Assembly: GCA_963576735.1 (NCBI GenBank)
Contig: OY755197.1
Span: 3,298,501 to 3,362,500, forward strand
From: Bedellia somnulentella
Taxonomy: Eukaryota; Arthropoda; Insecta; Lepidoptera; Bedelliidae
Length of the DNA: 64,000 nt
Direction: 5' to 3'
Shown: one piece after another, positions 207-53,619 of the stretch
Position numbering within the stretch: position 1 is the stretch's first letter
How the letters are laid out: each line of letters begins with the position of its first letter
Program-made: the position numbers and the translations under genes
Notes under the pieces: generated by a model
Database searches by the model: none
Told to the model about the DNA's origin: nothing
The model's input: the letters and a program-made list of their open reading frames with translations, nothing else

Positions 207-293
207 AATGTATATATGTAATAAAAGCACTGATGTATTTCATCCTTCAGGTGTCGTAAGGAGTGTATTAAAGCTTTAAAATTAAATTTTTGG

Positions 294-547
294 TTGTTAA
301 CGGTGAGGGAAAACATCGTGAGGAAACCCACATGGCTGAGTTGTACTTAGTCATGTGACAGTGTATTCGTACAAAACGGCGATAGGCCTGTACCCTATCA
401 CGTGATTACACTGTCCATGCAAAACGTGGGTACTCTGAACACCAAGTAACAAAGTCACGTGATGTTCAGAAGTATTAGTACCTCTGCCAACCCCTTCGGG
501 GATATTCGGCATGAACGTTTATATTTATGTTATATGTTATATTATGT
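294..547 (+). mobile_element. S2 tRNA-SINE, 5'-truncated, left arm only
   Basis: Starts inside S2 at its conserved core aaaacatcgtgaggaaacc and runs to the degenerate tail ttatattatg. The right arm has the empty site near 53,506, where the flanks join directly at ttttggaccg. Confidence 0.85.
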
Positions 548-1164
548 TGGACCGGAGATCCGTCATTAACTACCTTTACTTCACCATTTTTTCCCATCGA
601 GCTTACTAAAATGGCTAAGTTATTTCTATATATTAATAATATATAAATATAAGTTTTGTTCTAAAAATCATACAATGTTAATTTTAATTCTAAGCTATGG
701 ATTCTAATGTAAATAAATGGACAATTTCCCCAATATTTCGCCTCATAATTTACCAGGCACCATACAACCAAATGCAAAGGTCTCTGTTTGATTGAAAACA
801 TAAGCGCGTTGACAGCTCAATTTATTTGGTCGCAGGTTGGAACCACTAATGCCGTCATTTAGAGTCCATTTTTATGATTAGGTAATGTTACTTTTATTTT
901 GTTTTTGTCTCTAATACTTCAAGAGAGCTGTTTGCTACCGGAAAACAAAACCTTTATAATGCTGTAAAACTCTGATAGTCAAAATTTTATGTGTTTTTAT
1001 ACATATAATAGTTGTCTTTACGATAAGTAAGTTTTAATTATTTAACGAAAAAAACTTCTTTCTTCTTTTGGATTAAATATTTTTTGTATCACGAAGAACA
1101 TGCAAATTTCTGCTTAAAACACAATCATAACTTTTTAAAATTAAATTATTAAGCTTTGTGGGAT

Positions 1165-1250
1165 TCAGGAAAGTATGCTTCAGTTTCAGCTGTTTACAAC
1201 CCCAGATCTTGAGTTCGATTCCTGGGAGATTTTATCACAAATAAAATTTG
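1165..1250 (+). repeat. tRNA-like SINE fragment
   Basis: Contains a B-box-like gagttcgattcctggg. The same sequence lies inverted at 52,155-52,230 in the right arm. No complete tRNA cloverleaf is evident. Confidence 0.4.
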
Positions 1251-1270
1251 TGATATACATCATACAAACC

Positions 1271-1532
1271 GTGTAATGCCGTGTAGTGCCGGCTTAGAAT
1301 GTTGCTACCCCTTTCTACCCACGGGTGTCGTAAGAGGCGACTAAGGGTATTGGGGCTTTTTATTGGATTTTTGGGCGATGCGGTTGGAGACCCATCACCA
1401 AAAACCTTTATTTTTACCATCTTTTCCCCACTCAGTTTCCAAAAGTGGCTGAGGAATTTATAATTCCTTAGCTCTGGCTACCCCTTCTAGGGAAATATAG
1501 CCGTGAGTATATGTATGTATGTATGTAATGTA
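1271..1532 (+). mobile_element. S1 SINE-like copy, left arm only
   Basis: Full-length S1 from gccgtgtagtgccggc to gtatatgtatgtatg. Flanked by a duplicated atcatacaaac before the element and after the tail, indicating target-primed insertion. Confidence 0.88.
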
Positions 1533-1559
1533 TCATACAAACATATATACATATACTTA

Positions 1560-1745
1560 CTGCCTCAGTGGCAGTCGTTAGAAGCGACTTAAGGTATTTA
1601 GGCTTTTTAATTGATTGTTAGGCATTGCCGTTGAAGACCCATTACCTATATTTTTCAGTTCTTTTCCATCTCAACTTTAAAAAGAGACACGAAAAATTCT
1701 TGTTCTGGAACTCCGGTAATCCATTTTTGAGTTTATAGCCCTGAT
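1560..1745 (+). mobile_element. Old, diverged S1 copy
   Basis: Recognisable by agaagcgacttaagg and the gagtttatagcc end. Its counterpart is 50,320-50,455, so it predates the duplication. Confidence 0.65.
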
Positions 1746-1790
1746 TGAATGAAATAATGAAAGGGTTCACATTGCCAGCAATATTATGTG

Positions 1791-1969
1791 TTATTTGTAC
1801 AACAATACGAAGCAAGCATCTTTCCTAATGAAGCTGATCCTCGTATATATTATTTCACCGTTCTTAGTGATTAGTCTTAGCCGTATGATGCCCGTATTCT
1901 ACTAAGTCTTATTGTTTGATTACAGCGTCTTATTTCACGTTAATGAAACACAAAGCTTGTGCTGAACTT
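1791..1969 (+). repeat. Local direct repeat, copy 1
   Basis: About 170 bp repeated at 2,333-2,503 (shared landmarks: ctttcctaatgaag, gtatgatgcccgtatt and ttaatgaaacaca). Both copies are also in the right arm (49,480-49,650 and 50,085-50,265), so this local duplication predates the inverted duplication. Confidence 0.8.
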
Positions 1970-1974
1970 TTTTT

Positions 1975-2180
1975 GCCACGATTACGCCGTATATCACCGA
2001 AGGGGTTGGCAGAGGTACTAATACTTCTGAACATCACCTGACATTGTCACCTGGTCTGCTGGCTGCTGGCCAGCCCCTTATCACGTGAGTACACTGTCCA
2101 AGCAAAACGTGGCTAAACTGAACACCAGGTGACAATTTCAGGTGGTGTTCAGAAGTATTAGTACCTCTGCCAACCCAAAT
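1975..2180. repeat. Fold-back of two S2 3' ends
   Basis: The S2 terminal segment occurs first as reverse complement (about 1,996-2,050) and again in forward orientation (about 2,128-2,178). This gives two nearly perfect arms of about 52 bp around an insert of about 80 bp. The right arm (49,940-50,075) carries only one S2 3' end here. Confidence 0.82.
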
Positions 2181-2182
2181 AT

Positions 2183-2327: not shown

Positions 2328-2332
2328 TATCG

Positions 2333-5201: not shown

Positions 5202-5429
5202 AAATTAAGTTTGAGTTTTGTGCCAATTGTTAATAAAATCTTAATAGAGTAAAATCAAATTTTTACTTTTTCTAATAATATCATTGATTTAGACCATTAA
5301 CAGGAAAACACACACACACAAAAAAAGATTCCAACTTCACCAACTAACAATAATACACACAACTAGAAATATCTGTGTAAAGTGGATTTTTGACTAGAGG
5401 TTATTCGTGATATTTGAATAAAAAATTTT

Positions 5430-5683
5430 GCTGTGTAGTGTCGGCTTAGAATAGCACTACCCCATTTCTTCCGGTGGGTGTACGTAAGAGGCGACTAACG
5501 GTATCGGGGCTTTTAAGGGATTTTTGGGCGATGCGGTTGGAGACCCATCACCAACAACCTTTATTTTACCATTTTTTCCCCACTCAACTTTCCAAACGTG
5601 GCTGAGGAATTTCGAATTCCTTAGCTCTGGGTACCCCTTCTAGGTATTTATAGCCGTGAGTATATGTATGTATGTATGTTTGT
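5430..5683 (+). mobile_element. S1 SINE-like copy, left arm only
   Basis: Full-length. Flanked by approximate duplicate ttgaataaaa. The right arm near 47,650 has the site without the element. Confidence 0.88.
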
Positions 5684-13049: not shown

Positions 13050-13127
13050 ACTGGATGGGAATAATAGGCTCGATAAAAATATTATAAATTTTGTTTTGTA
13101 TGACATTTCACGGATTCTATCGAAGTA

Positions 13128-14353
13128 GTATTCTATTGGATGTAGTTGACAATATTTTAAATGACCGAAATGAAGGTAAAAGCACCTTACTAACATTACT
13201 AGATTTCTCCAGAGCTTTCGAATGTTTGTGCAGGCCCCTTCTATTGTCCAAGATGGCATATTACGGATTTGATGCAGCGACTATTCGTTGGTTTGATAGT
13301 TACTTATCTGAAAGGTTCCAATTTGTAGAGCTCCGTGGGAGAAATGGCAGTATTCAAACATCATCAGCCAATAAATTACACAGAGGAGTACCACAGGGAT
13401 CTATATTGGGTCCGATGTTGTTTATTTTATACACAGCTGATATAATTAACAGTATACATAAATGGCAGTACCATTTATACGCTGATGACCTTCAATTATA
13501 CATTAGTGGGCTACCCGGTGAGGTGGTGGATGCTGTCAAAATTCTTAATGCGGAGCTTGAGAGAATTGTGGCCTGGTCGGAGAGGAACTGTCTAGTCCTG
13601 AATCCTAGCCATTCCAAGTACCTAGTACTTGGAACTATGCATCAAATTCATAATACTTTAAAGGTTCTTCCGGCCAATGCTGTAGCTATCAGGGGTCACC
13701 CCATAGAAAGGGTTGTAGAAGCAAAGAACCTTGGTTTACTGATGGACGGGGAGCTTCGGTTCGAAAACCATGTTTTATCAGTGGTTAGTAATTGTTTCTA
13801 CCGCCTTAAAGTCCTGTATAATATTCGCGATTACCTTAGTGTGGATTTGCGTGTTCACCTTTGTGAATCGTTGGTATTATCTAGGTTAAATTACTGTGAT
13901 GTGGTCTATGGTAGTTGCATAATTGGCCGTTCTCAGAAATTGATAAAGCGTGTGCAAAACGCATGTGCACGTTTTTGTTTTCGCATCCCGCCTCGTTCCC
14001 GTGTCACTCCGTATTTGAACGACGCTAAATTATTGAAAATGCAGGCACGTAGGCAACTACATCTCGCAACTCTGCTTTTCGGTGTTATTCGACACGAATC
14101 TCCTAACTATTTGTATAAAAAATTGCAATGGTCTAAAAGTGGCTATCAATTTAAAGTCAGGGCGATTGTGCCAATGCATCGTTTGGTGGCTTTTCGAGGC
14201 AGTTTCAGATTCGCGGCGTCCAAATGCTGGAATGACCTCCCTCCACCAATTCGTAGTCTAACCAGTAAATTCACCTTCAAGCGAAAGCTTAAAAACCTTT
14301 TGCTACTTCAACAAAATCCTTTGGCTAATCCCCCACCCATTCCACCTTATTAA
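13128..14353 (+). CDS. LINE reverse transcriptase, 5'-truncated
   Basis: Uninterrupted frame for about 408 residues once the first dozen codons (flanking target DNA) are discounted. Motifs in order: LLDFSRAFE (motif A, with the first Asp kept and Glu in the second acidic position), HRGVPQGSILGP, and YADDLQLYI (catalytic YADD). The thumb follows, then a C-terminus with W-NDLPPPIRS and a basic end. The endonuclease and RT fingers are missing, as expected of an aborted target-primed copy. It has no promoter of its own. The open frame suggests a young insertion, in line with its absence from the other arm. Confidence 0.85.
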
Positions 14354-15036
14354 ATAGAAGTAGACAATCAATGGATCAAACAATTATATTAGTTTCCCTT
14401 TGAAAATAAAGTATACGTATATATATGACTATTTGAAATGTCTTTGCTAGTATCGTTTATTAATTTTTAGTTATGTGTCGTATGAAATTATCATTTCATT
14501 GTATTTTATTTATTTCATTTTTTCTATTTAATTTTTTGTCAATTTGTTTAAATACATCAATTTTGTATATTCATGTTTATGGTTCTGTTGATTTGTTTGA
14601 TATTTTTATATATTTAAAATAAATGCATGCATTATGTTTATATATATTAATAGTTCGTGCATCACCTCTACTTGGCGGTGACTGAAAATCAGTGTTGTGA
14701 GGTATTAACTCACAACGAAAATGCTGAGTCATCTGCCAATTCATTGCTACGCAGGTAATGGCTATTCTTGTGACAGGTTCTTAATAATTTTATTAAGTCA
14801 TCATATATTTTGGTTCGTTTTTATTTATGTTTGCTTTTTTCTTATTTTATAACTCATGTTTTATTTTGAGTTTTTTTTTATTATTTATTTTTGTTAACTT
14901 ATATATTATTATTATTATTTTTTTCTTTTGTTGTAAAACCAACCTTAATATTATTTTGTTGTTATGTTTCATGTATTGTTTACTCAAGCTTAGCAATGAA
15001 TAAATGTTTTTCTTTCTTTCTTTTCTTTCTTTCTTC
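13128..15036 (+). mobile_element. 5'-truncated jockey/CR1-like LINE, left arm only
   Basis: Inserted between flanks that are joined in the right arm near 38,030. Holds the RT C-terminal two thirds, a 3' UTR of about 0.68 kb and a (TTTC)n tail at about 15,009-15,036. The same tail type appears on the minus strand at 63,846. Confidence 0.87.
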
Positions 15037-16964: not shown

Positions 16965-17325
16965 AATATTGTCCCTTTTAATCCCATTTCAAGCCATCCA
17001 CAAACCAACTTTCGCAATATTTCTGTGCGAAATAAAATGAAAAATTCACATGTAACAATAGTAGTACGGGAGCCAAAAGAAACTTTTCTTTATTTCGCGT
17101 CGACTGCATCGCCGTATGCAAGAATCTCGGGAAATATGATTTATCGTCTGTTGCGCTGTTTTCTTCGGCCCGCTTTGTGTTGGAATTTCTTGATTGCGTT
17201 CTTGGCGACGGAGACTTTTATTTGGATATCAGCGAACTACTGCAATTATTTTTCTTGATATTTTATTGTTGCAACATTACTTTGACGTCAAAAATTTAAG
17301 AAGAATCTGCGTTATTTGTTTATTG
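16965..17325. other. Nearly identical inner-arm block, left
   Basis: About 360 bp with only two differences I can find from 33,210-33,570. It has a 78-codon frame (17,025-17,258 plus) of unknown meaning, with no domain recognised. Function is unassigned. Confidence 0.5.
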
Positions 17326-17358
17326 CCTCCCCTCCGGACCTCGATAGCGAACAGTCGT
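17326..17358 (+). promoter_or_regulatory. Putative internal LINE promoter (DPE-like)
   Basis: Taking 17,326 as +1, agtcgt at 17,353-17,358 falls at +28 to +33 and fits the downstream promoter element pattern used by TATA-less insect LINEs. The start site is inferred from the TSD edge. Confidence 0.4.
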
Positions 17359-17825
17359 GCCCTAAGTTATTACAATTTTATTTTAAATCAAAGTTAATAT
17401 AAATAACCACAAAAATCAATACCGAAAAATAGGATCGCAGAAGTGTGTAGGAGTTCGATTTAAAATTTCAACGGGTGCCATTGTTGGCTGACTTCCACCA
17501 CCACTACCGCCGCGTCAAGCCGCTACATCGGTGAGTCATCCCACTGCGCGTGCGCACTACAATACTCGGACTCGTGCCCCACCAACTACACTTTAGCGCG
17601 CCAATCATAAATAGACCGCTTCCTATTGGACGAAGCAGCGAGCGTTGACCTCCAATCAATAACTTATTCAAGAGGCCATCTTCAAATTAATTTGTATTTG
17701 TACCAGGCGCACATAATTTTGAAGCGGTGACTCATTGTTTCCTACATCTGTCTCACTCAACTGGTGTTTTACTTTGATATTTTGAAGCGAAGGTATTTTG
17801 ATAATAAATTTCAAAACTACCCGCA

Positions 17826-18746
17826 ATGCCACTTAAGCGAACACCACCAAAAACTCAGACAATGTTGGAGATAAAAGATAGCCGCCCTCACTCAAGCTCA
17901 GCACCCTCTCTTTCCGACCTAGCTGACATGGAGTCCTCTCCTTCTCTAGCCACCGCATCTCGTCTCATAAGTAAACGGAAACGACAAGATAGTGAAGAAC
18001 AGATAATATCTTTTATGACTGATATGAAAGCTCTTTTTACTGAGTTTACAACACAACAAAATTCAAAATTTGAAAAAATTTACAGTTCTTTAGATGAGGT
18101 AAAAACCCAAATTGACGATTTTCGATGCTCAATAGAATTTATCTCTAATCAGTATGAAGATTTAAAACTACAATTTACCAAAATTGAATCGGAACGCCAA
18201 CAATATTCCGAGCAAATAAAATTATTAGAAAACAAAATAGAAACTTATGAGCGTAATCAACGATCTACTTGTATTGAAAAACGAAACATATATTTGGAAA
18301 AACCAGAATCTAAAGAGTCATTAATTAACACATTTCAAAAAATATCGAATGTTTTGAACACTACCGTTGAAACCCACTTTATAAAAGACATTTTCCGAAC
18401 CAAATCTGCTACGCCCGAAAAATCCACTATTATTGTTGACTTTACCTCAGTTCTAATGAAAGAAAAATATTTAAGAATATATAAACAACACACTAAAGAA
18501 AAAGGAAAAATTACGACTGAACATTTGAAAATAAAAGGGTTGTCAAAGCCTATATACATTTCAGAAAATTTAACTGCAAAAATGAAACGACTTTACTTTT
18601 TAGCCAGAGACTTTGGGAAAACTAACTCTTATAAATACTGCTGGACGTCTAAAGGAAAAATATACATACGTAAATCGGAAGGATATCCACCTATACCCAT
18701 TAACCCTGAAGAGGACTTACGCCGTGTGATGGACAAAAACATGTGA
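17826..18746 (+). CDS. LINE ORF1 nucleic-acid chaperone-like protein
   Basis: Intact 306 residues with an ATG in a purine context (caatgcc). The N-terminal 50 residues are Pro/Ser-rich. A probable coiled coil follows at about 50-145, rich in Glu, Lys, Gln and Leu with regular hydrophobic spacing. The C-terminal half (about 150-300, with RNIYLEK, STIIVDF, KIYISENLT-like and YCWTSKGKIYIRK segments) resembles the basic Baculo_FP-type domain of many insect LINE ORF1 proteins. By analogy it binds element RNA in the ribonucleoprotein. It has no CCHC knuckles. ORF2 starts 587 bp downstream. The resemblance is from memory of the family and was not searched. Confidence 0.78.
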   Translation: MPLKRTPPKTQTMLEIKDSRPHSSSAPSLSDLADMESSPSLATASRLISKRKRQDSEEQIISFMTDMKALFTEFTTQQNSKFEKIYSSLDEVKTQIDDFRCSIEFISNQYEDLKLQFTKIESERQQYSEQIKLLENKIETYERNQRSTCIEKRNIYLEKPESKESLINTFQKISNVLNTTVETHFIKDIFRTKSATPEKSTIIVDFTSVLMKEKYLRIYKQHTKEKGKITTEHLKIKGLSKPIYISENLTAKMKRLYFLARDFGKTNSYKYCWTSKGKIYIRKSEGYPPIPINPEEDLRRVMDKNM

Positions 18747-18884
18747 CTATTTTCCCACAATGTATTCCCTACTACTACATACTTATTTAATCTTGCATGC
18801 TCTATTCAAATTACCATTTTTCTAGTTATAACTTATACTAAGTTCATATACTTTTGCATTAATTTTATTTCTAAATCTTTTATT

Positions 18885-19343
18885 TTGTATAACTCTAAGC
18901 AGATTATATTATTAATCATTAACGAGCCATACACACAAAACCTCAAATTACTTACTACACACGCATACGCCATATTTACACTCTTATCATATTTAGTGAT
19001 CAGTAATATATACATCTCCTTTTCACTATTACACTTACCAGATAAAAATAATCACATACTCCTATATACATTTAATTTTAAGCATCCCATACCCACCCGT
19101 CAAATGTACATGTTATTTATTAATATTATATTCATACTTTCACACATATTTACGATATTGCCCTATTTTTTACATAGGAATAAGCATTTTTCTATGTCAT
19201 GGTTTTCCTGTCTCCTTCCAGTACTATTAATTAGGACAAAATTAATTAACATTTCTGCACCAATGTATCCGTGTAACAATCTAAACAACTCAATCATTAA
19301 TGTCCCTTCGTTACCTATAATTAAATTAAATTATGGACCGTAA
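18885..19343 (+). CDS. Possible small hydrophobic ORF between ORF1 and ORF2
   Basis: 152 codons with three hydrophobic stretches (about residues 28-50, 74-98 and 105-120). Its stop overlaps the ORF2 start: atggaccgtaa holds both the ORF2 ATG and this frame's TAA. Overlap suggests termination-reinitiation, but AT-rich sequence gives hydrophobic frames by chance, and I know of no such protein in this LINE class. It could equally be an untranslated spacer. Confidence 0.25.
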   Translation: MYNSKQIILLIINEPYTQNLKLLTTHAYAIFTLLSYLVISNIYISFSLLHLPDKNNHILLYTFNFKHPIPTRQMYMLFINIIFILSHIFTILPYFLHRNKHFSMSWFSCLLPVLLIRTKLINISAPMYPCNNLNNSIINVPSLPIIKLNYGP

Positions 19344-20954
19344 TATACAAGATGATATTGAAAATTGTTTAGCTCCTCATTCACTCTCATGTTCCCCCGA
19401 ACAAATCCATTTATTCGCAGATTCATTAAATAACTCACTAAAAGTCTTTCACGTGAATATACGAAGTTTGCAACACAATTTTGATGCACTTATTACCCTA
19501 CTTAGTCGAATACCTACTGAGCTTGATATAATTGTACTCACTGAGTGTTGGCTCAGCAAATGTCCCCTTTTACCTGCTTTACCCAACTACTCATCCACTC
19601 AATCACGACACTGCAATCAAAATGACGGTGTAGTTATTTATGTTAAAAATACTCTGATCTGCTCCTTTGAAGAACCGCCACTAATGGATGCGAACTGCCT
19701 ACTACTAAAATTCTCCAACTCGTTGGCAATTTTAGCTATTTATCGATCTCCTAGTTTTAAAAATCTCTCTAACTTCTTAACTAGTCTTAATGATAACTTA
19801 ACACAACTTCAAAAATTCAAAAATCGCGTCATTATCGGAGACTTAAACATAGATATACGTAAAAACAACACTGACTCCAACTCCGAAGACTACCTCAATC
19901 TGCTTGCATTTCATGGTCTATTACCTACTCACCTCAATCCGACCAGAAAAACATCGTGTCTAGACCATGTTATCTCCACCGATCCCAACCACTCTATGAC
20001 TTTAACCCTTGATACTCTAATTACAGACCACTCCCCTGTTATTCTATTCATTGATAATCGTATGTGTTGTAAAAACTACCATACACCTCATAATTCCAAA
20101 TTCAAACGCGTAAACGAAACTGGGGTGTCATCGGATATAGAGCAGTGTGATTTCTCTGAGATTTTTACATATAATGACCCAGAAATTGCGGCGAATGCCC
20201 TAGTGAGTAAATTATCATCCATAATTGAGTCAAACACCAAGTTCTGCACTATACCTTCCAAACGAAGAATCCTTAAGCCCTGGTTAACACCCGGTCTCTT
20301 GCGTTGTATGCGTAATAGAGACAAAATGTACAAAAAAACAACAAAAAATCCTTTTGATGAGATCTTAAAAACAACATATTCACGATACAAAACCTATTGT
20401 AATAATTTACTAAAAAAAGTAAAAAGACTTTATGAAAAAGATCAATTAAAGAAATGTACAAACAATCCTAAGTCCCTTTGGCAAACTATCAAAAATATTA
20501 TTAATTTAAAGCCCAATCGTAATTCTTCCCTTAAGCTCTTAAAAAGACAGACTGACCCACAATTTACGATAAACAATATTAACAAATATTTTGCGACTGT
20601 AGGCGAAACTCTTGCATTGAAAATAAAAAGTAATAATAATCCTACACGGCTTACACGACCTATACACAAACTTAACACCAATTTAAAATCTATGGTGTTG
20701 TTGGATACAGATACGGCCGAAGTTAACACAGCGATCTTAACTTTAAAAAACACAAGCGCCACCGGGTGGGATAATATTACTTCCTCTGTTCTGAAATCTA
20801 ACATGCATATATTGAGCCCAATAATTAGTTATATAATTAATCTCTGCTTTGCGAAAGGTTGCTTTCCGAGGGTTTTCAAAAGATCCTTGGTACACCCTAT
20901 CTACAAAAGTGGAGATAGAGACAGTGTCTGTAATTACCGCCCTATATCTGTCCT
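19333..20954 (+). pseudogene. LINE ORF2, endonuclease and RT start (5' half)
   Basis: 540 codons. An APE-type endonuclease occupies about residues 35-240: FHVNIRSL (Asn), VLTECWL (Glu), AIYRSPS, IIGDLNIDI (Asp/Asn), a CLDHVIS segment and ITDHSPV (Asp/His). A connector follows, then RT fingers ending at NYRPISVL (about residue 541). The frame is cut there by the inner LINE; the two codons and stop after it (to 20,964) belong to the insert. Reading resumes at 25,683. All catalytic residues of the nuclease that I can place are present. The insertion disables the element, although the half itself is open. Confidence 0.88.
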
Positions 20955-21098
20955 TAATAATTAATTAAATAATTTAGTGATACCACTTATAAAGCAGTGT
21001 TGCCACTCTAAATATTAAAAGTGTAGTAAGAAAAATACAAGAAAATATACTAACTATAATTATATTTTATTAAAAATTGAATTTAATAACCAATAAAC

Positions 21099-22406
21099 AT
21101 GAAATGTATAAAATGCAATAAAGTCGTACCAAAAAGAAATCTTAAATGTTCAATCTGTGGAAACGTGTATGACGAAGCTTGCGCTAATGTTAGTGAAAAA
21201 AGGTACCAATTAATGACTAGTGTACAGAAAAAGGAATGGAAATGTGATACATGTATAACAAAACATAGAAAAGACAAAACATCAAATAAAACCAATATGA
21301 CTCTTCGAAAAAGGCAGGATCAAAATAATGTACAACGGATTCCCACACAACTAGAAAAAAGCGTTTCCGACGAAAGTTTATTAAATTCTACGGCACTAGA
21401 TAATAGTATATCAGCGAGCTTACCAAATTTTTCTTTATCCCAAAGCGCAGATATTACTGAATTAAAATATGAAAACGACTATTTAAAGAGTGAACTGTTA
21501 ACGGCACACGAAGAAATCGAAAAGCTTAAAATAGAAAACGATGAATTGAAGCAATCATTTGAAAAATTTTGCAATAAAAACGCAATAAATAATAAAGCCA
21601 ATTTAATAAAATCCCCATCGACATCCACACTTAAACATTGCAGTGAAAATTCTTTTGTGTCGAAAAAAACAAAAGTTGGGAAAACTATTACACTAACGCC
21701 TAAAATCCCTCCAACAACTTCAGATATCGAAATATTTGAGGTCAATAACGACCAAAATAATTCAGGAAAGCAACCAAACCCAGGCCAAAAAGAATGTATT
21801 AAAAAGCAAAAACAACAAGTCATAATATTGGCTGACGAGCAAGGCCGAGGATCAGCAGGTACTTTATAAAATCTATTGGGAGATTCATTCAAAGTATTTT
21901 GTATGTATAAACCTGGAGCACCAATTCATGAAATATTAAAACCGATGAGATTGTATAAAGAGCCATTAACCAAAAATGATTACATCATAATTATTGGTGG
22001 CATGCATGATTGTGATCCCTATAGACTCTTGTCTCACCTTAATTTCAATTTGCACAATACATCGGAGCCTCATATTATAATATGCCAAAATAGAAACAAT
22101 TATTATATAAATGAAAATAAATTAAATAATGAATTAAAATTTTTATGCAGCCATTTTGAAAATGCAGAATACCTGGAGCTTAATCACCAGTGCGAATATT
22201 ATGGGCAAAGAAAATATTCCTCATATTTGGGCCAAAATATACTTAGGAGCATATTGCGCAATCAATATAAAATGAATTATTATCAATTTTGTAAATGTAA
22301 AGAGCCAATTAAAAATACAAGAGATCAAGCAGTCCAAACGGAAAGTCATGAAATGAATAGCGGTGTTGAAATGAGCGGAACTGATATTCCTTTTTTAGAG
22401 AACTAG
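21099..22406 (+). pseudogene. Inner LINE ORF1: PHD-like finger, coiled coil, esterase-like domain; one stop
   Basis: Single frame of 435 codons with one internal TAA at 21,867-21,869. Residues 1-60 form a Cys-rich PHD-like finger (CIKC, CSIC, then CDTC). A coiled-coil stretch lies near residues 110-160. The C-terminal part resembles the SGNH-esterase-like domain of CR1/L2-type ORF1 proteins: VIILADEQGRG, then after the stop GDSFKVF and YIIIIGGMHD. The stop falls between the first esterase block and the rest, so the copy is probably inactive. Termination at 22,404-22,406 overlaps the open frame of ORF2. Confidence 0.75.
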
Positions 22407-25264: not shown

Positions 25265-25682
25265 TATTTAATTTTAATGTTAACATGTTTTTATGTTTTA
25301 TTATAATTCAGTTTTCGTTTTGATATGTTTTAATTGATTGAAAGGTATTATATTTTTTATTTTTTTATGTAGTTAACTTAAACTGATGATGATATCTCTG
25401 TGGCATAGGGTTATATTTTATTTTATTTGTATATTTTACACTGACTTCAATTTATGAATAGTACACTTAGAGTTATATTTAAGAACATTAATTTTATTAA
25501 TTAATTAGCAATACTGCATGATGACATTTCTATGAATTTCAATAAAATGACGTAGTTAAACTATGTACTAATGTCGTACACTCGAAAGAGTAGATTGTGA
25601 CAGTCACTACTATAAATTTATGTAACATCTTTTGTTGTATCCGCAATCATGACAATAAAATGGTTTCAATGGTTTCAATGGT

Positions 25683-27003: not shown

Positions 27004-27034
27004 TAATTCAACAATTCCACATACAACCACATTC

Positions 27035-27036
<2 letters not shown>

Positions 27037-27067
<31 letters not shown>

Positions 27068-27090
27068 AACATAGCACACATACTCACACA
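27037..27090. repeat. (AT)n(AC)n microsatellite
   Basis: Simple repeat in the outer LINE's 3' UTR. Confidence 0.85.
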
Positions 27091-27388
27091 TAATTAACAT
27101 TTTTACACAAATCCATACACTATCACATACACTAGTATAGTAGTATTCACATATATTTAATGGCTCTAGGTTAGGTCTAGAATAAGTAATAAATATAAAA
27201 CAAATAATTTAAGGCAACCACTGTAATTCTTAACTGGAATTAATAGTACCAATATGGTACTAACCCGTGAAATGGAGGACGGCGTTTACAGCTGCGACAC
27301 AGTTTTATAACTAATGCAGCTGTATTCGTTCCATATGTTCTAATGTACAATTGTAAAAATTCCAATAAATATGTTTTTTTTTTTTTTT

Positions 27389-28345: not shown

Positions 28346-28349
28346 AGTC

Positions 28350-28596
28350 GTGTAGCGCCGGCTTAGAATAGCGCTACCCCATTTCTACCGGCGGGTGTAC
28401 GTAATAGTCGACTAACGGTATTGGGGCTTTTAAGGAAACATTGGGCGATGCGGTTGGAGACCCGTCACCAACAACCTTATTATACCATCTTTTCCCCACT
28501 CAACTTTCCAAAAGTGGCTGAGAAATTTATAATTCCTTAGCTCTGGCTACCCCTTCCAGGGAATTATAGCCGTTAGTATATGTATGTATGTATGTG
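28350..28596 (+). mobile_element. S1 SINE-like copy
   Basis: Full-length, starting gtgtagcgccggc, with (TATG)n tail. No right-arm partner is visible; it would fall inside the gap. Confidence 0.87.
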
Positions 28597-28684
28597 TATT
28601 TTACTTATTCCCTAAATGTTAAATTTCATTCAGTGTGCCATTAGGCTTTGAATAGTTTCTGTATGTATCTTCGTGGTTTTTGCT

Positions 28685-29135: not shown

Positions 29136-32100
29136 AGCGGCCGATTCCAGCGGCCGATTATAAACCGACCAAATTGAAAAGTCTTCAATTCAAACACATA
29201 AAACCATTCAAATACTGCATAAAACATGCTAAATAAACAAGTTATTCATCGATTTATGCTCAGACTCCTACTGAAGGTAAGACAGATAAACCTAGACTCC
29301 CTTAAACCTAATGTAGAGTAAGTGGTCAAAAGAAAAATCCAAAAAGAAGTATTTGACATCAACCCAAAGCTTCTAGCCACCCTGAAAGTGGTGTCAATAG
29401 AAGCGTGTGAATATGTCCTTTAAAACCACGACCCAAACATACCATTATGAAGAGCTTTTAACCCTCCTTGGATATGTAGAGTATAAAGTCGAAACGAAAA
29501 ATATTAAAAAAACCGATTAGATATAGACCCAAAGCTTCTAGCCACTCTGTAAGAGGTGACGATAGAAGCGCCTTGGTTAGTTCTATGCAACACATCTCAA
29601 GTCATAATGTTATGAAGAGCTTTTAACCCTACATTCGTAAGGTACAATCCAGCGGCCGATTGCGCTCATTCAATTAGCTAGGATAAATTCGACCAAAAGC
29701 TTCTAGCCACACTGTAAGTGATGTCAATAGAAGCGCCTTGGTTAGTTCTATGCAAAACATATCAAGTCATAATATTATGAAGAGCTTTTAACCCTTCATT
29801 CGTATGGTATAATCCAGCGGCCGATTGCGCTCATACAAATTGCTATGATAAAGTCGACCAAAAGCTTCTAGCCACACTGTAAGTGGTATCAATAGAAGCG
29901 CCTTGGTTAGTTCTATGCAAAACATATCAAGTCATATTATTATGAAGAGCTTTTAACCCTTCATTCGTAAGGTACAATCCAGCGGCCGATTGTGCTCATA
30001 CAAATAGCTAAGATAACGTCGTCCAAAAGCTTCTAGCCACCCTGATAGTGGTGTCAATAGAAGCGTGTGAATATGTCCTTTAATACCATGATCCATACAA
30101 TCCATTATGAAGAGCTTTTAACCCTCCTTTAATATGTAGAGTTTACGGTCGAAATGACAAAATTGAAAGAAAGCTATTAAACCTAGACCCAAAGCTTCTA
30201 GCCACTCTGTCAATAGTGTCGATAGAAGCGCCTTAGTTAGTTCTGTGCAACACATATCAAGTTATATTATTATGAAGAGCTTTTAACCCTTCATTCGTAT
30301 GGTATAATCCAGCGGCCGATTGCGCTCATACAAATTGCTATGATAAAACCGACCAAAAGCTTCTAGCCACACTGTAAGTAGTATCAATAGAAGCGCCTTG
30401 GTTAGTTCTATGCAGAACATATCAAGTCATATTTTTATGAAGAGCTTTTAACCCTTCATTCGTATGGTACAATCCAGCGGCCGATTGCGCTCAAACAATT
30501 AGCTAAGATAAATTCGACCAAAAGCTTCTAGCCACACTGTTAGTGGTGTCAATAGAAGTGCCTTGGTTAGTTCTATGCAAAAAATATCAAGTCATATTAT
30601 TATGAAGAGCTTTTAACCCTTCATTCGTATGGTACAATCCAGCGGCCGATTGCGCTCAAACAATTAGCTAAGATAAATTCGACCAAAAGCTTCTAGCCAC
30701 ACTGTTAGTGGTGTCAATAGAAGTGCCTTGGTTAGTTCTATGCAAAAAATATCAAGTCATATTATTATGAAGAGCTTTTAACCCTTCATTCGTATGGTAC
30801 AATCCAGCGGCCGATTGCGCTCATACAAATAGCTAAGATAACGTCGACCAAAAGCTTCTAGCCACCCTGAAAGTGGTGTCAATAGAAGCGTGTGAGTATG
30901 TGCTTTAATACCACGACCCAAACATACCATTATGAAGAGCTTTTGACCCTCCTTTGATATGTAGAGTATAAAGCCGAAATGAAAAATATGAAAAAAACCG
31001 ATTAGATATAGACCCAAAGCTTCTAGCCACACTGTAAGTGATGTCAATAGAAACGCCTTGGTTAGTTCTATGCAAATCATGTCAAGTTATATTATTATGA
31101 AGAGCTTTTAACCCTTCATTCGTATGGTACAATCCAGCGGCCGATTGTGCTTATACAAATTGCTATGATAAAGTCGACCAAAAGCTTCTAGCCACACTGT
31201 CAATAGTGTCGATAGAAGCGCCTTAGTTAGTTCTATGCAACACATATCAAATCATATTATTATGAAGAGCTTTTAACCCTTAATTCGTATGGTATAATCC
31301 AGCGGCCGATTGCGCTCATACAATAAGCTAAGATAAATTCGACCAAAAGCTTCTAGCCACACTGTTAGTGGTGTCAATAGAAGCGCTTTGGTTGGTTCTA
31401 TGCAAAACATATCAAGTCATATTATTATGAAGAGCTTTTAACCCTTCATTCGTATGGTACAATCCAGCGGCCGATTGCGCTCATACAAATAGCTAAGATA
31501 ACGTCGACCAAAAGCTTCTAGCCACACTGTCAGTAGTATCAATAGAAGCGCCTTGGTTAGTTCTATGCAGAACATATCAAGTCATATTTTTATGAAGAGC
31601 TTTTAACCCTTCATTCGTATGGTACAATCCAGCGGCCGATTGCGCTCATACAAATAGCTAAGATAACGTCGACCAAAATCTTCTAGCCACCCTGTTAGTG
31701 GTGTCAATAGAAGCGCCTTGGTTAGTTCTATGCAAAACATATCAAGTCATATTATTATGAAGAGCTTTTAACCCTTCATTCGTATGGTACAATCCAGCGG
31801 CCGATTGCGCTCATACAAATAGCTAAGATAACGTCGACCAAAAGCTTCTAGCCACCCTGATAGTGGTGTCAATAGAAGCGCCTTGGTTAGTTCTATGCAA
31901 AACATATCAAGTCATATTATTATGAAGAGCTTTTAACCCTTCATTCGTATGGTACAATCCAGCGGCCGATTGCGCTCATACAAATAGCTAAGATAACGTC
32001 GACCAAAAGCTTCTAGCCACCCTGAAAGTAGTGTCAATAGAAGCGTGTGAGTATGTGCTTTAATACCACGACCCAAACATACCATTATGAAGAGCTTTTA

Positions 32101-32779
32101 ACCCTCCTTTGATATGTAGAGTATATAGTCAAAATAAAAAATTTGAAAAAAAGCTATTAGACATAGACCCTAAGCTTCTAGCCACTCTGTCAATAGTGTC
32201 GATAGAAGCGCCTTAGTTAGTTCTATGCAACACATATCAAGTCATATTATTATGAAGAGCTTTTAACCCTTCATTCGTATCGTACAATCCAGCGGCCGAT
32301 TGCGCTCATACAATTAGCTAAGATAAATTCGACCAAAAGCTTCTAGCCACACTGTAAGTGATGTCAATAGAAGCGCCTTGGTTAGTTCTATGCAAAACAT
32401 ATCAAGTCATAATATTATGAAGAGCTTTTAACCCTTCATTCGTATGGTATAATCCAGCGGCCGATTGCGCTCATACAAATTGCTATGATAAAGTCGACCA
32501 AAAGCTTCTAGCCACACTGTAAGTGGTATCAATAGAAGCGCCTTGGTTAGTTCTATGCAAAAAATATCAAGTCATATTATTATGAAGAGCTTTTAACCCT
32601 TCATTCGTATGGTACAATCCAGCGGCCGATTGCGCTCATACAAATAGCTATGATGACGTCGACCAAAAGCTTCTAGCCACCCTGATAGTGATGTCAATAA
32701 AAGCGTGTGAATATGTCCTTTAATACCATGATCCATACAATCCATTATGAAGAGCTTTTAACCCTCCTTTAATATGTAG
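29136..32779. repeat. 165-bp satellite array
   Basis: The landmark aagcttctag (one variant aatcttctag) recurs from 29,367 to 32,667 at multiples of exactly 165 bp wherever I checked (21 register positions). 29,136-29,366 is a degenerate edge. Most monomers carry gcgccttggttagttctatg and agcggccgattgcgctc. Five carry a diverged segment starting gtgtga at about 29,405, 30,065, 30,890, 32,045 and 32,705. The array is cut by the assembly gap, so its true length is unknown. Confidence 0.95.
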
Positions 32780-32979
32780 NNNNNNNNNNNNNNNNNNNNN
32801 NNNNNNNNNNNNNNNNNNNNNNNNNNNNNNNNNNNNNNNNNNNNNNNNNNNNNNNNNNNNNNNNNNNNNNNNNNNNNNNNNNNNNNNNNNNNNNNNNNNN
32901 NNNNNNNNNNNNNNNNNNNNNNNNNNNNNNNNNNNNNNNNNNNNNNNNNNNNNNNNNNNNNNNNNNNNNNNNNNNNNNN
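32780..32979. other. Assembly gap (200 N)
   Basis: Exactly 200 N, the usual placeholder for a gap of unknown size. It separates the satellite from the right arm. Confidence 0.99.
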
Positions 32980-33115
32980 GTTGGAGACCCATCACCAACA
33001 ACCTTTATTTTACCATCTTTTCCCCACGCAACTTCCAAAAGTGGCTGAGGAATTTCTAATTCGTTAGCTCTGGCTACCCCTTCTAGGGATTTATAGCCGT
33101 GAGTATATGTATGTA
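32980..33115 (+). mobile_element. S1 3' half at gap edge
   Basis: From gttggagacccatcacc to the (TATG) tail. Its 5' half lies in the gap. Confidence 0.85.
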
Positions 33116-33771: not shown

Positions 33772-34030
33772 ACATACATACATCCATCCTGACGTCCCTC
33801 AGCAGGGACAAAGGGCCTTGAGTAGATTTCTCCATCTGGCTCGATCTTGGGCAGCGGCTGCGAGATCCTCCCACTTCATTCCCACAACTTTTGCCTCATT
33901 CTCCACAGAACGTCGCCAGGTTGTTTTTGGGCGGCCTCGTTTACGTTTTCCGGTTGGCTGCCAGCTGAGCACTTGCTTCGACGGGAATTCTTCGTGTCTT
34001 CTGAGGGAATGACCCAGCCACCTCCATTTT

Positions 34031-34275
34031 GCTGTGTAGTGTCGGCTTAGAATAGCACTACCCCATTTCTTCCGGTGGGTGTACGTAAGAGGCGACTAAC
34101 GGTATTAGGGCTTTTAAGGAATTTTTGGGCGATGCGGTTGGAGACCCATAACCAACAACCTTTATTTCACCATCTTTTCCCCATGCAACTTCCAAAGGTG
34201 GCTGAGGAATGTCTCATTCCCTAGCTCTGGCTACCCCTTCAAGGGATTTATAGCCGTGAGTATATGTTTGTATGT
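34031..34275 (+). mobile_element. S1 copy nested in RTE
   Basis: Perfect 11-bp duplication acctccatttt (34,020-34,030 and 34,276-34,286). Confidence 0.92.
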
Positions 34276-34297
34276 ACCTCCATTTTCTTGTGAAGAT

Positions 34298-34751
34298 TTA
34301 CTTGTCGATGGGTTTCTGCTTAGTCAGCTTCCACAGTTCCGCGTTCGAAATGGTGCGTGGCCAGTAAATCCACAAAATTCGCTTTAGGCATTTGTTGATA
34401 TATACCTGTAGCTTGCTGGATAGGTCTTTCCGAACGAACCATGTTTCGCAACCATGTAGCAAGACTGACTTTACGTTAGACTCGAAAATCCTCACTTTTG
34501 TACGCCGGGTCATGAGTTTAGAGCTCCACACCGGCTTTAACTGTCCAACCATCTCTGTTCCTCCTATTGGGTTCACTACTCCCCCAAGATAGGTGAATTT
34601 CTCAACCCGTTCGACATCTTCGCCATTAATTTGGAGCGGCTGGTTATCAAGGGAGTTAAGACGCATCTCCTTGGTTTTGCCTATATTGATGCGAAGGCCT
34701 TCTTTCGCAGCTTCCGTGGCTAGGTCGTTTGTCTTGGACTGAAGGTCTTGG
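34298..34751 (-). pseudogene. RTE reverse transcriptase C-terminal fragment
   Basis: Post-RT region of an RTE-type ORF: INGEDVERVEKFTYLGGVV, then WSSKLMTRRTKVRIFESN, SVLLHGCETW and CLKRILWIYWPRTISNAELW. These match the conserved tail of RTE polyproteins downstream of the catalytic domain. The YADD core is missing through 5' truncation. Coding continues across the inserted S1 into 33,800-34,030 with frame breaks, where a GKRKRGRP-like stretch is visible. Confidence 0.82.
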
Positions 34752-34840
34752 AAAAGTGGCTTAGGAATTTCTTACGCTCAATCTCTACATATCCCTTCTA
34801 GGAACTTATAACCATGAATGTTTTTGCATGTATGTAGGAT
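34752..34840 (+). mobile_element. Old S1 copy, second part
   Basis: Continuation of 33,598-33,771. Ends accatgaatgtttttgcatg. Confidence 0.75.
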
Positions 34841-36802: not shown

Positions 36803-37478
36803 CTACCGGAAGCCCGACCTGGCAGAATCTTCCCAATACATGAAGCGCCTGGGTACATGAACATAACCACTGTACAGCAAGATACCAATGAAACATCGCA
36901 TTTCATTTGATGTTATGTTACCAGGCTTATTCTTCTGAGCGGCGTACAAATTAGTAAAATCAACTAACATATCTATGATCTCACTGCTGAGAAGACATTC
37001 GAAATAATATAACGGCTTTTGACGTAACTTAGCAGTCATTTGGGGACGCCAGGAAGAAAAATCTGGCTTGATGTCTCTTGCGATCCAGGAATACGCCTTA
37101 TTTTTTTGTACTCGCATGATGCCACCACTCTTACCTTGCGTAGGTATTGGTAAGGTATCTTGAGCGTCCGTAGAAGAGGCAGTGGGCGCATGATCCACAC
37201 GCTGACGCTTTGCCAACTGCGATATCGGAATGTCGCCTTCGTCATCACTATTGGAATCATTGCCGCCGTTATCGAGTTGTATTGCACATGGTGCTCGAAG
37301 CTGGGAGCCTTGTAGATTTTGAATGTTAACATATTCTTCGTCTCCGGAATCTTCATCGGTCACATTACCGTTACAATTATCTGGAGGAAGTATTACGATG
37401 GAATCTGGCAAAGGACCGTCATCGTCCTTCTCCAATTCTTCAACGATTTCATGAAGCCTCAAAGAGTGGAAACGGGAT
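36803..37478 (-). pseudogene. piggyBac transposase, main exon (truncated)
   Basis: Exon 2 begins at 37,478 after a ttattattacag acceptor and joins in frame to a 14-nt exon 1. An acidic N-terminal region (EELEKDDDGP, DEDSGDEE) leads into the piggyBac transposase domain start: EIIDMLVDFTNLYAAQKNK, then EMRCFIGILLYSGYV and MYWEDS. The frame then leaves homology and stops. The DDD catalytic core is deleted. A fragment of the C-terminal Cys-rich domain (CGYCHK, then a frameshift, then CFAAYHKQC) survives at about 36,650-36,760. It cannot transpose by itself. Confidence 0.82.
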
Positions 37479-37782
37479 CTGTAATAATAAGAAATACCTA
37501 CTTCAAAAACACAGATAAAACAATAAAAGCGTAGGTAACACAAAAGATTTCAAGCAGGAAGAATGTATTTCTATGCACCGTCCTCATCCTCACTGCATAA
37601 GTAGGTAAGGTAGTTCATTTTACGATCGTCGTTTATAAACAACACCTACTTTTCTCGACAAAAAAGGTACCAAAATGTTAATTGTAAGGCATATTATTTT
37701 CCTGCATAGATAAAACTACGTTATAACAACAAGTTAGATGTAACTTCAAGCCAATATTATATTCAAATGATATTGTACTTAC

Positions 37783-39711: not shown

Positions 39712-39955
39712 ATGCCGTGTAGTGCCGGCTTAGAATGTCGCTACCCCTTCCTACCCACGGGTGTCGTAAGAGGCGACTAAGGGTATTGGGGCTTTTTATT
39801 GGATTTTTGGGCGATGCGGTTGGAGACCCATCACCAAAAACCTTTATTTTTACCATCTTTTCCCCACTCAACTTCCAAAAGTGGCTGAGGAATTTATAAT
39901 TCCTTAGCTCTGGTTACCCCTTCTAGGGAAATATAGCCGTGAGTATATGTATGTA
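39712..39955 (+). mobile_element. S1 copy, right arm only
   Basis: Full-length. Flanks share an ataattatata-type duplication. Empty site near 11,985 in the left arm. Confidence 0.88.
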
Positions 39956-40055
39956 TGTATGTATATATATATATATAATTATCCTAGGAAACCTCTCTAG
40001 CTTTGATTTATTTAAACGTTTACACAAAAACTAAATAACGAAATACATACATACA

Positions 40056-41998: not shown

Positions 41999-42028
41999 TC
42001 TAATTCATCTAAGCATGAAAAAACAAGT

Positions 42029-42268
42029 TTGCCGGCTTAGAATATCGCTACCCCTTTCTACCCACGGGTGTCGTAAGAGGCGACTAAGGGTATTGGGGCT
42101 TTTTATTGGATTTTTGGGCGATGCGGTTGGAGACCCATCACTAAAAACCTTTATTCTTACCATCTTTTCCCCACTCAACTTCCAAAAGTGGCTGAGGATT
42201 TTATTATTCCTTAGCTCTGGTTACCCCTTCTAGGGAAATATAGCCGTGAGTATATGTATGTATGTATG
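42029..42268 (+). mobile_element. S1 copy, right arm only
   Basis: Lacks the first about 15 bp. Flanks share atgaaaaa. Confidence 0.87.
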
Positions 42269-42844
42269 AAAAAGAGGACACAACAAACTAAATTTAATTT
42301 GTAATTACCCAAAAATAAATAACATTCATATTCAAAAGTAACTTCAAAATACTCATACATTTAAACATACCGACTAATTAGCAAAGTTAGTGACACTGTA
42401 GAACCTACTTGTCAAGCTCTATTCAAGTTATTTACACATGCATTCACAGAGCTTTGAATGTTAAAAAGCTAGAATTTCCTTTGCGAAACTTTTGTGTTGA
42501 ATTTGTTAAATTTCAATAAACTCAGTACTTAATTTAATAACGTTGAGTGGTTGTTGTAGCTTAGTAAAATAACTGGAGTTATTATTAAGAGAGTATTTCC
42601 AAGCTAGAATTATAGGAATCTCTATACAAAGAGTGTTTTTTTTTTCAAAAATTCCTCTGCTATGAAAAATAGCTCATGATTAAGGACTGTTTATCTTAAT
42701 ATATTGTATCGGTATATAGAAAAATGTAAAACTGCAAAGACTTGAACATTGTTTTGCTATAGATGGTAACTGAATATAAAATGTAACGGACATTTTGGTT
42801 ACGTCATGATTTTATAAAATTGAATATACACTAAAAATAAAATA

Positions 42845-45970: not shown

Positions 45971-46223
45971 CATACATATACATACATACATATACTCACG
46001 GCTATAAATCCCTAGATGGGGTAGCCAGAGCTAAGGAATTAGAAATTCCTCAGCCTATTTGGAAAGTTGATTGGGGAAAAGATGGTGAGATTAAGGTCGT
46101 TGGTGATGGGTCTCCAACCGCATCGCCCAAAAATCCCCCAAAAGCCCCAATACAGTTAGTCGCCTCTTACTTACACCCACCAGAAGAAATGGGGTAGTGC
46201 TATTCTAAGCTGACACTACACAG
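45971..46223 (-). mobile_element. S1 copy, right arm only
   Basis: Full-length. ttttttaa at both flanks. Empty site near 6,965 in the left arm. Confidence 0.9.
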
Positions 46224-46291
46224 TTGTTTTTTAAATAAATAAAAAATATGGAAATAAATAATAATTTCAAAAAATAACAAAATCAGTGCCG

Positions 46292-46420: not shown

Positions 46421-46873
46421 CTTGAAATATTACAGCCTATTTTAATTCTTCCCGTTTGTGTCTTAAAGTTTTGGGGCTTTTCAAGTGATAGTTAAGTGAC
46501 GTTGTTATGCGTAACAAATTAACGATTTTTAAAAATCATTTACATGCATCATACTTCATTCACTTCCAAAAGTGGTACAGAGATCGTTAGTTTTGGAGCC
46601 ATTTCTACCCCTTGTTATGCCGTTTTTTATTGCCAAGAGGCAAAACACTAGTTTTCAGTGAAGACCTATATCATACAATATTCGATTATAACATAATAAC
46701 AAACAATGATTCTAAGTTTGCCACATACAAAACAAAAATATAAATGGATAAAACGGTTAATAGAACCAAATAACAACTAACCAAGAAACAAATACTTAGT
46801 ATTTCAAACTAAGATTATATTACTTTTATAACTTTTATCTAAGCATTAAATAAATTAGTGAATTTATTTTTAT

Positions 46874-47120
46874 GCTGTGTAGTGTCAGCATAGAATAGCA
46901 CTACCCCATTTCTTCCGGTGGGTGTACGTAAGAGGCGACTAACGGTATTGGGGCTTTTAAGGGATTTTTGGGTGATGCGGTTGGAGACTCATCACCAACA
47001 ACCTTTATTCTACCATCTTTTCCCCACTCAATTTCCAAAAGTGGCTGAGGAATTTGTAATTCCTTAGCTCTGGCTACCCCTTCTAGAGATTTATAGCCGT
47101 GAGTCTGTATGTATGTATGT
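46874..47120 (+). mobile_element. S1 copy, right arm only
   Basis: Flanked by gtgaattta on both sides. The left arm has a single copy near 6,350. Confidence 0.92.
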
Positions 47121-47146
47121 GAATTTAAAGATAATATATTATAATA

Positions 47147-49939: not shown

Positions 49940-49942
<3 letters not shown>

Positions 49943-51022: not shown

Positions 51023-51232
51023 ATCTATAATAAAGCCAAATTTAAAGTAATGGGGCAGTAAATACGCGGGTAACTAATCAGTTGGTGTCCGAAAAGGTCC
51101 GAATAGCAGTGCATGATGCATGTTCCCTCGATTATATTGGCAGTGAATGTTGGGTTTGGCAGAAGTACTATGAGAGCAGAGTGAATGCAATAGAAATAAA
51201 GTCTCTCAGAAAAATGCCGTGTAGTGCCAGCT

Positions 51233-51476
51233 ATGCCGTGTAGTGCCGGCTTAGAATGTCGCTACCCCTTTCTACCCACGGGTGTCGTAAGAGGCGACTA
51301 AGGGTATTGGGGCTTTTTATTGGGTTTTTGGGCGATTCGGTTGGAGACCCATCACCAAAAACCTTTATTTTTACCATCTTTTCCCCACTTGACTTCCAAA
51401 AGTGGCTGAGGAATTTATAATTCCGCAGCTCTGGTTACCCCTTCTAGGGAAATATAGCCGTGAGTATATGTATGTC
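51233..51476 (+). mobile_element. S1 copy nested in RTE
   Basis: Flanked by gtctctcagaaaaa before and after. The first bases (gccgtgtagtgcc) are present twice, at about 51,216 and 51,235. Confidence 0.92.
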
Positions 51477-51730
51477 TCTCAGAAAAAAATTACATCGTAA
51501 AAGGTGCGGTGTGAAGATGATATTGTATAAAAGATAGAATAACAAGTGCTTACAGGTTTTGGGCAAGTCCTCTATGGTTTGGGCACATGGAGAAGTTGGA
51601 TGACAGTAAATTGGTAAAATGAAATAAAATTACAGCTTCAGGATGGTAGAAATTGGCGATTGAAAATATTTGCTTACCGCATTGGATACTAATGGCTTAA
51701 GTGTGTATGTGTATGTATGTTTGTATGATC

Positions 51731-52138
51731 ATAAATGTAATGTTAGATTGTGTGACCGAGTGAGAAATAGTGTTATTCGTGAAAAGTGTGGTGTGCAGGA
51801 TGATATTGTAAGAAAAATAGAAAAAGGAATGTTGAGATGGTTTGGGCACATAGAGAGGATGGATGATAGAAAATTGGTTAAAAGGATCTATAGAGCTAGT
51901 GTGGATGGTACTGTTAGTAGAGGACGACCACGGAGAACACACTTGGACCAAATTGAGAGTGTGCTCAAAAAGGCTGGCGTCCGAAGTTTGAAGAACAAAA
52001 GAGCATGTATGAAAAGATTGATGGATGTAAACGAAGCTAGAGAGGTTTGTCAGGATCGTACGAAGTGGCGATCGATAGTCTCTGCCTACCCCAATGGGAA
52101 TCAATGGCGTGAATATATGTATGTATGTATGTATGTTT
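51731..52138 (+). mobile_element. RTE LINE 3' fragment, longest copy, right arm only
   Basis: Inserted in the tail of the preceding RTE with tttgtatgatca on both sides. Confidence 0.88.
51733..52137 (+). pseudogene. RTE polyprotein C-terminus
   Basis: Open frame with CDRVRNSVIREKCGVQDDIV, then GMLRWFGHIERMDDRKLVKR, a basic SRGRPRRTHLDQIES stretch, then REVCQDRTKWRSIVSAYPNG. This is the conserved tail of RTE-clade proteins (W-GH-RM, GRPR, DR-WR motifs), with no catalytic residues. In sister copies the stop follows NG-N immediately (gggaattaa). Here it is caa, so the frame runs through the (TATG)n tail into flanking DNA. 5'-truncated, without a promoter. Confidence 0.85.
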
Positions 52139-52154
52139 GTATGATCAATATGAC

Positions 52155-52230
52155 TAATTTAATTTGTGAATTTATCTTCCGGGCATTGAACCCGAGATCT
52201 AGGGTTGTGAACAGCTGAAGATAAAAGTGA
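52155..52230 (-). repeat. tRNA-like SINE fragment, right copy
   Basis: Partner of 1,165-1,250. Confidence 0.4.
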
Positions 52231-52258
52231 AGCCCGCTTTCCTGGATCCTATAAAGCT

Positions 52259-52456
52259 ACATACATACATACATATACTCACAGCTATAAATCTCTAGAA
52301 GGGGTAGCCAGAGCAAAGGAATTAGGAATTCCTCAGCCACTTTTGGAAGTTTCGTGGGGAAAAGATGGTAAAATAAAATTTGTTGGTGATGGGTACCAAC
52401 CGCATCGCCGAAAAAACCCTTAAAAAACCCAATACCGTTAGTAGCCTCTTACGTAC
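52259..52456 (-). mobile_element. S1 copy, part 1, right arm only
   Basis: Interrupted by S2 and continues at 52,823-52,887. The S1 as a whole is flanked by aaagct. Confidence 0.88.
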
Positions 52457-52822
52457 ACATAACATAACATAAACGTTCACGCCGAATATCCCCGAAGGGG
52501 TTGGCAGAGGTACTAATACTTCTGAACATCACGTGACTTTGTCACCTCGTGTTCAGAGTACCCACGTTTTGCATGGACAGTGTACTCACGTGATAGGGGG
52601 CAGGCCTATCGCCGTTTTGTACGAATACACTGTCACATGACTAAGTACAACTCAGACACGTGGGTTTCCTCACGATGTTTTCCCTCACCGTTAACAACCA
52701 TGATAAATTAACCACACATATATGTCTTTAGAAAAGACAAATTGGTGTAGGCCCGATCCAGGATTTGAACTCTAGTCGTTTGCACGATAACCGAATGTTC
52801 TACCCACTGGGCTATCACGGTT
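52457..52822 (-). mobile_element. S2 SINE nested in S1
   Basis: Full-length with tailing taacataacataa. The split S1 carries acgtacac on both sides. Confidence 0.92.
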
Positions 52823-52887
52823 GCTCACGTACGTACACCTACCGGAAGAAATGGGCTAGGCTTTTCTAAGCCGACTCTACACAGCAA
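52823..52887 (-). mobile_element. S1 copy, part 2
   Basis: 5' end of the split S1, ending gactctacacagc. Confidence 0.88.
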
Positions 52888-53619
52888 AGCTAATTTATTT
52901 AATTTTATAAAATCATGATTTGACTTTTTGTATATATTGGCATATTCCTGATGATACAACAATTATTTAATCCCAAAGAAATTTTCCTCTGCAAGCAATT
53001 AAAACTTACTTATCGTAAAGACCACCATTATATGTAAAAAAACACATAAAATTTTGTCTTTCACAGTTTTACAGCATTATAAAGGTTTTGTTTTCCGGTA
53101 GCAAACAGCTCTCTAGAAGTATTAGAGACAAAAACAAAATAAAAGTAACATTACCTAATCATAAAAATGGACTCCAAATGACGGCATTAGTGGTTCCAAC
53201 CTGCGACCAAATAAATTGAGCTGTCAACGCGCTTATGTTTTCAATCAAACAGAGACCTTTGCATTTGGTTGGATGGTGCCTGGTAAATTATGAGGCGGAA
53301 TATTGGGGAAATTGTCCATTTATTTACATTAGAATCCATAGCTTAGAATTAAAATTAAAATTGTATGATTTTTATGTTCTAAAAATCATATTATATTTCA
53401 AGTTTCAATCAACTTATATTTATATATAGAAATAACTTCGCCATTTTAGTAAGGTCGATGGGAAAAAATGGTGAAGTAAAGGTAGTTAATGACGGATCTT
53501 CGGTCCAAAAATTACCTTTAAAAGCTTCCAAAACACTCCTTACGACACCTGAAGGATGAAATACATCGGTGCTTTTATTACATCTTTACATATAATAAGC
53601 CTTATTTTATTTTATTTGC

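Follow-up and report, generated by a model that had tools for sequence, protein, structure and literature searches.

Organization of the locus

The sequence analysed, hereafter the window, comprises 64,000 nucleotides of OY755197.1 from the lepidopteran Bedellia somnulentella. It contains two long stretches that match each other in inverted orientation, a satellite array and a single run of N. The principal features are listed below.

1-293, plus strand: outermost match, paired in inverted orientation with 53824-53505; mostly a SINE-like copy plus flank
547-27478, plus strand: left arm (contig A); chain of inverted homology to the right arm, one-sided stretches included
29526-32779, plus strand: array of a 165-bp satellite that reaches the gap, contig A only; 19.3 copies at 29526-32705, followed by eye on to 32779
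32780-32979, no strand: run of 200 N, the gap between contigs A and B; sole N of the window
32980-33115, plus strand: truncated SINE-like copy (full repeat about 250 bp), opening contig B; 92% to the copy at 28346-28603, from position 108 of that copy on
33114-53508, minus strand: right arm (contig B); chain, inverted partner of the left arm, one-sided stretches included

Inverted match between the arms

Comparison of the window with itself yielded a best collinear inverted chain of 26 blocks, with 12,866 aligned bp and 699 substitutions. Two blocks were dropped: the first consists mainly of a repeat copy, and the last, at 77% identity, represents a repeat family only. In the core chain of the remaining 24 blocks, left positions 547-27478 are paired with right positions 53508-33114 over 12,464 pairs with 655 substitutions, a divergence of 5.3%. 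The inverted chain scored 10,249, about sixfold the best of three controls: the same two sides in direct orientation reached 1,675, and comparison of each contig's own halves gave 1,317 for the right contig and 286 for the left. As a property of the letters the inverted match is real, and chance or background repeats are excluded as its source.

A block-by-block inverted match had been claimed in the original prediction, and a collinear chain far above its controls bears this out. The arms had been put at about 17 and 20 kb. The left arm in fact spans 26.9 kb, and agrees with the former figure only without a private stretch of 10,067 bp, when 16.9 kb remain. Furthermore, the block at 1-293 matches 53824-53505; therefore, the repeat may extend outwards past the left edge of the window. 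The locus has the two inverted arms of a genomic palindrome and, by the same chain, two divergent copies of one sequence within one assembly.

Junction between the arms

Each arm lies on its own contig, and the 200 N, exactly that number and the only such run in the window, are the only junction between them. A gap of 200 N is probably a scaffolder's default size; the phrase 'gap of 200' was absent from the matches listed in a search of the scaffold-gap literature. The left contig ends mid-unit inside the satellite. The right contig opens within the SINE-like repeat and passes straight into the right arm from 33114; no satellite is present at its start, and the satellite is known on the left contig only. 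Homology of the right contig to the left arm comes within 134 bp of the gap, the remaining bases being the repeat that opens this contig. Continuous sequence between the arms, as a palindrome would have, is absent from the assembly, and the two copies stand on one scaffold with a gap between them, as in a false duplication. The arms had been described as flanking a satellite, but they are interrupted by the 200 N and the satellite is on the left contig alone; this arrangement is a product of scaffolding and not continuous sequence.

These ends bear on the proposal of a real inverted segmental duplication. In this view the arms would form an imperfect palindrome whose spacer, 5.3 kb or longer, carries the satellite; the assembly would have broken in the satellite and been joined correctly. 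Such a structure would account for more than 12 kb of collinear inverted homology, and satellites are natural breakpoints of assembly. However, the arms are linked by 200 N alone and by no sequence, the right contig starts without satellite, and the extension of its homology nearly to the gap would have to be a coincidence.

One-sided stretches in the arms

Junctions between blocks of the chain were called one-sided when they left no base unaligned in one arm but more than 50 in the other. Fifteen of the 25 junctions were of this kind (6 left, 9 right). One left junction, located before the weak last block, was set aside as doubtful, which left 14 one-sided stretches (5 left, 9 right); one of these (290-546) neighbours the first, repeat-bearing block. 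The other 10 junctions had unaligned or barely differing sequence in both arms. Five of the 14 stretches, one in the left arm and four in the right, are SINE-like copies 251-269 bp in length; they are listed together with three larger stretches.

5414-5682, plus strand: SINE-like copy, left arm only; edges bear a perfect direct repeat of 10 bp; right counterpart site 47653
46867-47127, plus strand: SINE-like copy, right arm only; 9-bp perfect direct repeat; left counterpart site 6349
45979-46241, minus strand: SINE-like copy, right arm only; left counterpart site near 6973
42023-42273, plus strand: SINE-like copy, right arm only; left counterpart site near 10482
39712-39967, plus strand: SINE-like copy, right arm only; left counterpart site near 11992
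13126-15036, plus strand: 1.9-kb stretch, left arm only; covers most of a reverse-transcriptase fragment (ORF 13088-14353)
17312-27378, plus strand: 10,067-bp stretch with LINE reading frames, left arm only; right counterpart site near 33213
33773-34763: 991-bp stretch, right arm only; 12-bp perfect direct repeat

The 12-bp repeat at 33773-34763 lies at a piece of SINE-like repeat and was for that reason not taken as a sure target-site duplication, which it doubtfully represents. Edge direct repeats of two further one-sided stretches measured 5 bp and 4 bp, and those of the rest were at most 3 bp long or imperfect. As the comparison had no outgroup, a gain of sequence on one side looks the same as a loss on the other, save where direct repeats favour insertion. 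The 14 stretches, with their SINE-like copies and in some cases short direct repeats, would fit an allele-like pattern of presence and absence.

Alternatively, a large dispersed repeat or repeat cluster might happen to be present here twice, the arms being chance neighbours with no special relation. The region is rich in repeats, with 51 SINE-like matches covering 8,585 bp as well as LINE and transposase frames, and 4,507 of the 13,065 left-arm bases within the 26 blocks occur more than twice in the window. However, the other 8,558 bases occur exactly twice in the window, and the order of the chain is kept through 14 one-sided stretches. We regard this explanation as very improbable.

Divergence between the arms

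Divergence was determined in 52 segments of 100-250 aligned bases. It ranged from 0 to 10% in 48 of them; two segments reached 10.5% and 11.0%, and another two 22.0% and 24.8%, the 22.0% segment being the weak last block. Dispersion was analysed without the first, third, fourth and last blocks, without blocks of 200 or fewer aligned columns, and without 20 columns at each block end; this kept 10,819 columns in 38 segments of 250 bp. Substitutions per 250 bp were over-dispersed with an index (variance/mean) of 2.52, a value not attained in any of 2,000 permutations, the highest of which gave 1.84. Aligned stretches free of substitutions were up to 273 columns long.

Patchy divergence would fit recombining haplotypes with differing coalescence times and, equally, gene conversion from arm to arm in a palindrome. 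It argues against a single-age duplication subject to drift alone, provided that constraint is uniform. The same patchiness, and a tendency to break at a satellite, would be seen in a genuine palindrome undergoing gene conversion, which counts against a reading as haplotypes.

Diversity at fourfold sites in 38 butterfly species is given as 0.0044 to 0.0428, with a mean of 0.0175, in the relevant passage of a survey (PMC6672018), and a heterozygosity of 0.86% is stated for one moth in a passage of its genome report (PMC12859424). The divergence of 5.3% between the arms, calculated over partly repeat-derived sequence, stands against at most 4.28% at fourfold sites in the butterflies of that passage (PMC6672018), and it far exceeds the heterozygosity of the one moth. 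Both this excess over the usual allelic range and the substitution-free stretches, which could be traces of gene conversion between the arms, add to the case for a real inverted duplication. Weighed against the evidence from the contig ends, that explanation still appears unlikely to us. Its fuller version is more doubtful again: arms of some 20 kb or longer, duplicated in inverted order next to the 165-bp satellite, would be old (about 5%) and would carry many one-sided transposon insertions and gene-converted identical patches, possibly on the W chromosome.

A divergence above that of ordinary alleles would also be accounted for if the two contigs were the Z and the W gametolog of a single locus, mistakenly joined. 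A possible W or Z location had been raised in the original prediction. However, no sex-chromosome marker was found among the window features examined, and of the explanations considered this one seems to us the least credible. A divergence of 5.3% may still be compatible with alleles, since false duplications favour divergent stretches and the sequence is partly derived from repeats.

Two haplotypes as the probable origin of the arms

The copies lie on separate contigs joined by N; therefore, they are most likely wrongly joined parental versions and not a giant palindrome. We consider it probable, at about 0.75, that the arms are the two parental haplotypes of one locus, the alternative haplotype having been retained and placed head-to-head at a scaffold gap. 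This reading is based on the gap, on homology that extends almost to the start of the right contig, on allele-like one-sided stretches in both arms, and on the lack of satellite at the opening of the right contig. Our confidence was not set higher because 5.3% is high for alleles. The original prediction had offered an old palindrome or two divergent haplotypes. The haplotypes are now favoured; a palindrome requires a single molecule that carries the satellite and both arms, and here the arms are joined by 200 N only.

The proposed course of events is that of a retained haplotig, or 'heterotype false duplication', in which both haplotypes would be kept in the primary assembly. The left contig would have run through the locus into the 165-bp satellite, where assembly halted. 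The right contig would be the other allele, ending within the SINE-like repeat about 5 kb short of the end of the left contig. Its homology up to 134 bp from the gap fits what may be expected of an allele whose assembly ended at a repeat. Head-to-head order is what a scaffolder using contact data would favour: it would have linked the ends that were nearest in those data and thereby placed the right contig in reverse after the left across 200 N, creating a false palindrome. The inverted homology, the gap and contig ends, the one-sided stretches and the uneven divergence are observed, whereas we infer both the allelism of the contigs and this manner of joining.

Published accounts of assembly errors describe related cases. 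In the passages on false duplications by Ko et al. (2022, PMC9516828), the marks of such errors include gaps between duplicated pairs on one scaffold, and haplotype duplications are named as the main source of false duplications and as more heterozygous than other regions. The passage describing YaHS (PMC9848053) states that one haplotype is assumed and that haplotypic duplications are to be purged ahead of scaffolding. For one moth assembly, a passage reports that 24 haplotypic duplications were taken out by hand besides the use of purge_dups (PMC12859424). The locus resembles heterotype false duplication, as the passages of Ko et al. and of the VGP paper (2021, PMC8081667) present it, in that a gap separates the duplicated pair within a single scaffold and in that the copies are divergent and differ in structure. 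It differs in its high divergence of 5.3% and in its head-to-head (inverted) order, which those passages of the two papers (PMC9516828, PMC8081667) do not describe. Tandem order with a gap between the copies is given for homotype false duplication in one passage from the false-duplication literature.

In palindromes of the mammalian Y chromosome, gene conversion keeps the arms almost identical, and the arms often contain genes. The locus shares with them long inverted arms plus a spacer. It differs from them in its 5.3% divergence, in the lack of a continuous spacer and in that the 10 ORFs submitted to Pfam, out of 20, yielded no recognisable host gene. A literature search returned no title on palindromes of lepidopteran W chromosomes, which is a statement about that search and not about absence from print. 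If the palindrome were real, one could ask whether gene conversion between arms operates in non-recombining regions such as the lepidopteran W. Where an inverted duplication has N at its centre, the prudent assumption is that two haplotypes were left unmerged, unless read depth shows otherwise.

Satellite, repeats and reading frames

Twenty-one anchors of the satellite recur at an invariant spacing of 165 bp from 29370 to 32670. The units between 29370 and 32779 fall into two types, arranged as B A A A B A A A A B A A A A A A B A A A. Self-identity of the array peaks at a distance of 12 units (1,980 bp) with 0.904, as compared to 0.809 between neighbours, a hint in the letters of possible higher-order structure. 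A 22-base piece of the satellite had no exact match in viral contigs. Rfam, at gathering thresholds, returned no match, and ARAGORN returned no tRNA.

The SINE-like family is about 250 bp long with a TATG-type tail, and its 51 matches to one copy occupy 8,585 of the 64,000 bp of the window. Of the 10 ORFs submitted to Pfam, out of 20, seven matched a family, and none of these was recognisable as a host gene. Within the private 10,067-bp stretch of the left arm, Pfam assigned Baculo_FP_2nd to the frame 17808-18746 and RVT_1 to the frame 25594-26499; between them, the frame 22385-25264 carries RVT_1 with endonuclease domains. Because of this order of frames, 17312-27378 apparently consists of one LINE nested in another, the inner one with a long open frame (959 aa). 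The 959-aa frame has 177 relatives; among the best 120 listed, two carry organism names, Chilo suppressalis and Homalodisca vitripennis, which we take to be a moth and a leafhopper, respectively.

For the frame 51664-52215, 12 of 50 relatives carry organism names. All 12 presumably belong to the Lepidoptera, and the first two, with 67-68% identity, presumably to the gelechiid moths. These 12 named relatives support a probable lepidopteran origin of the DNA in the window. A part of the right arm without a left partner contains a transposase fragment (36803-37549; Pfam DDE_Tnp_1_7, E 1e-16), which we assume to be of piggyBac type. To the right of the inverted repeat, at 60175-61810, a reverse-transcriptase frame (RVT_1, E 3.3e-32) is followed by a second frame, which may be its continuation.
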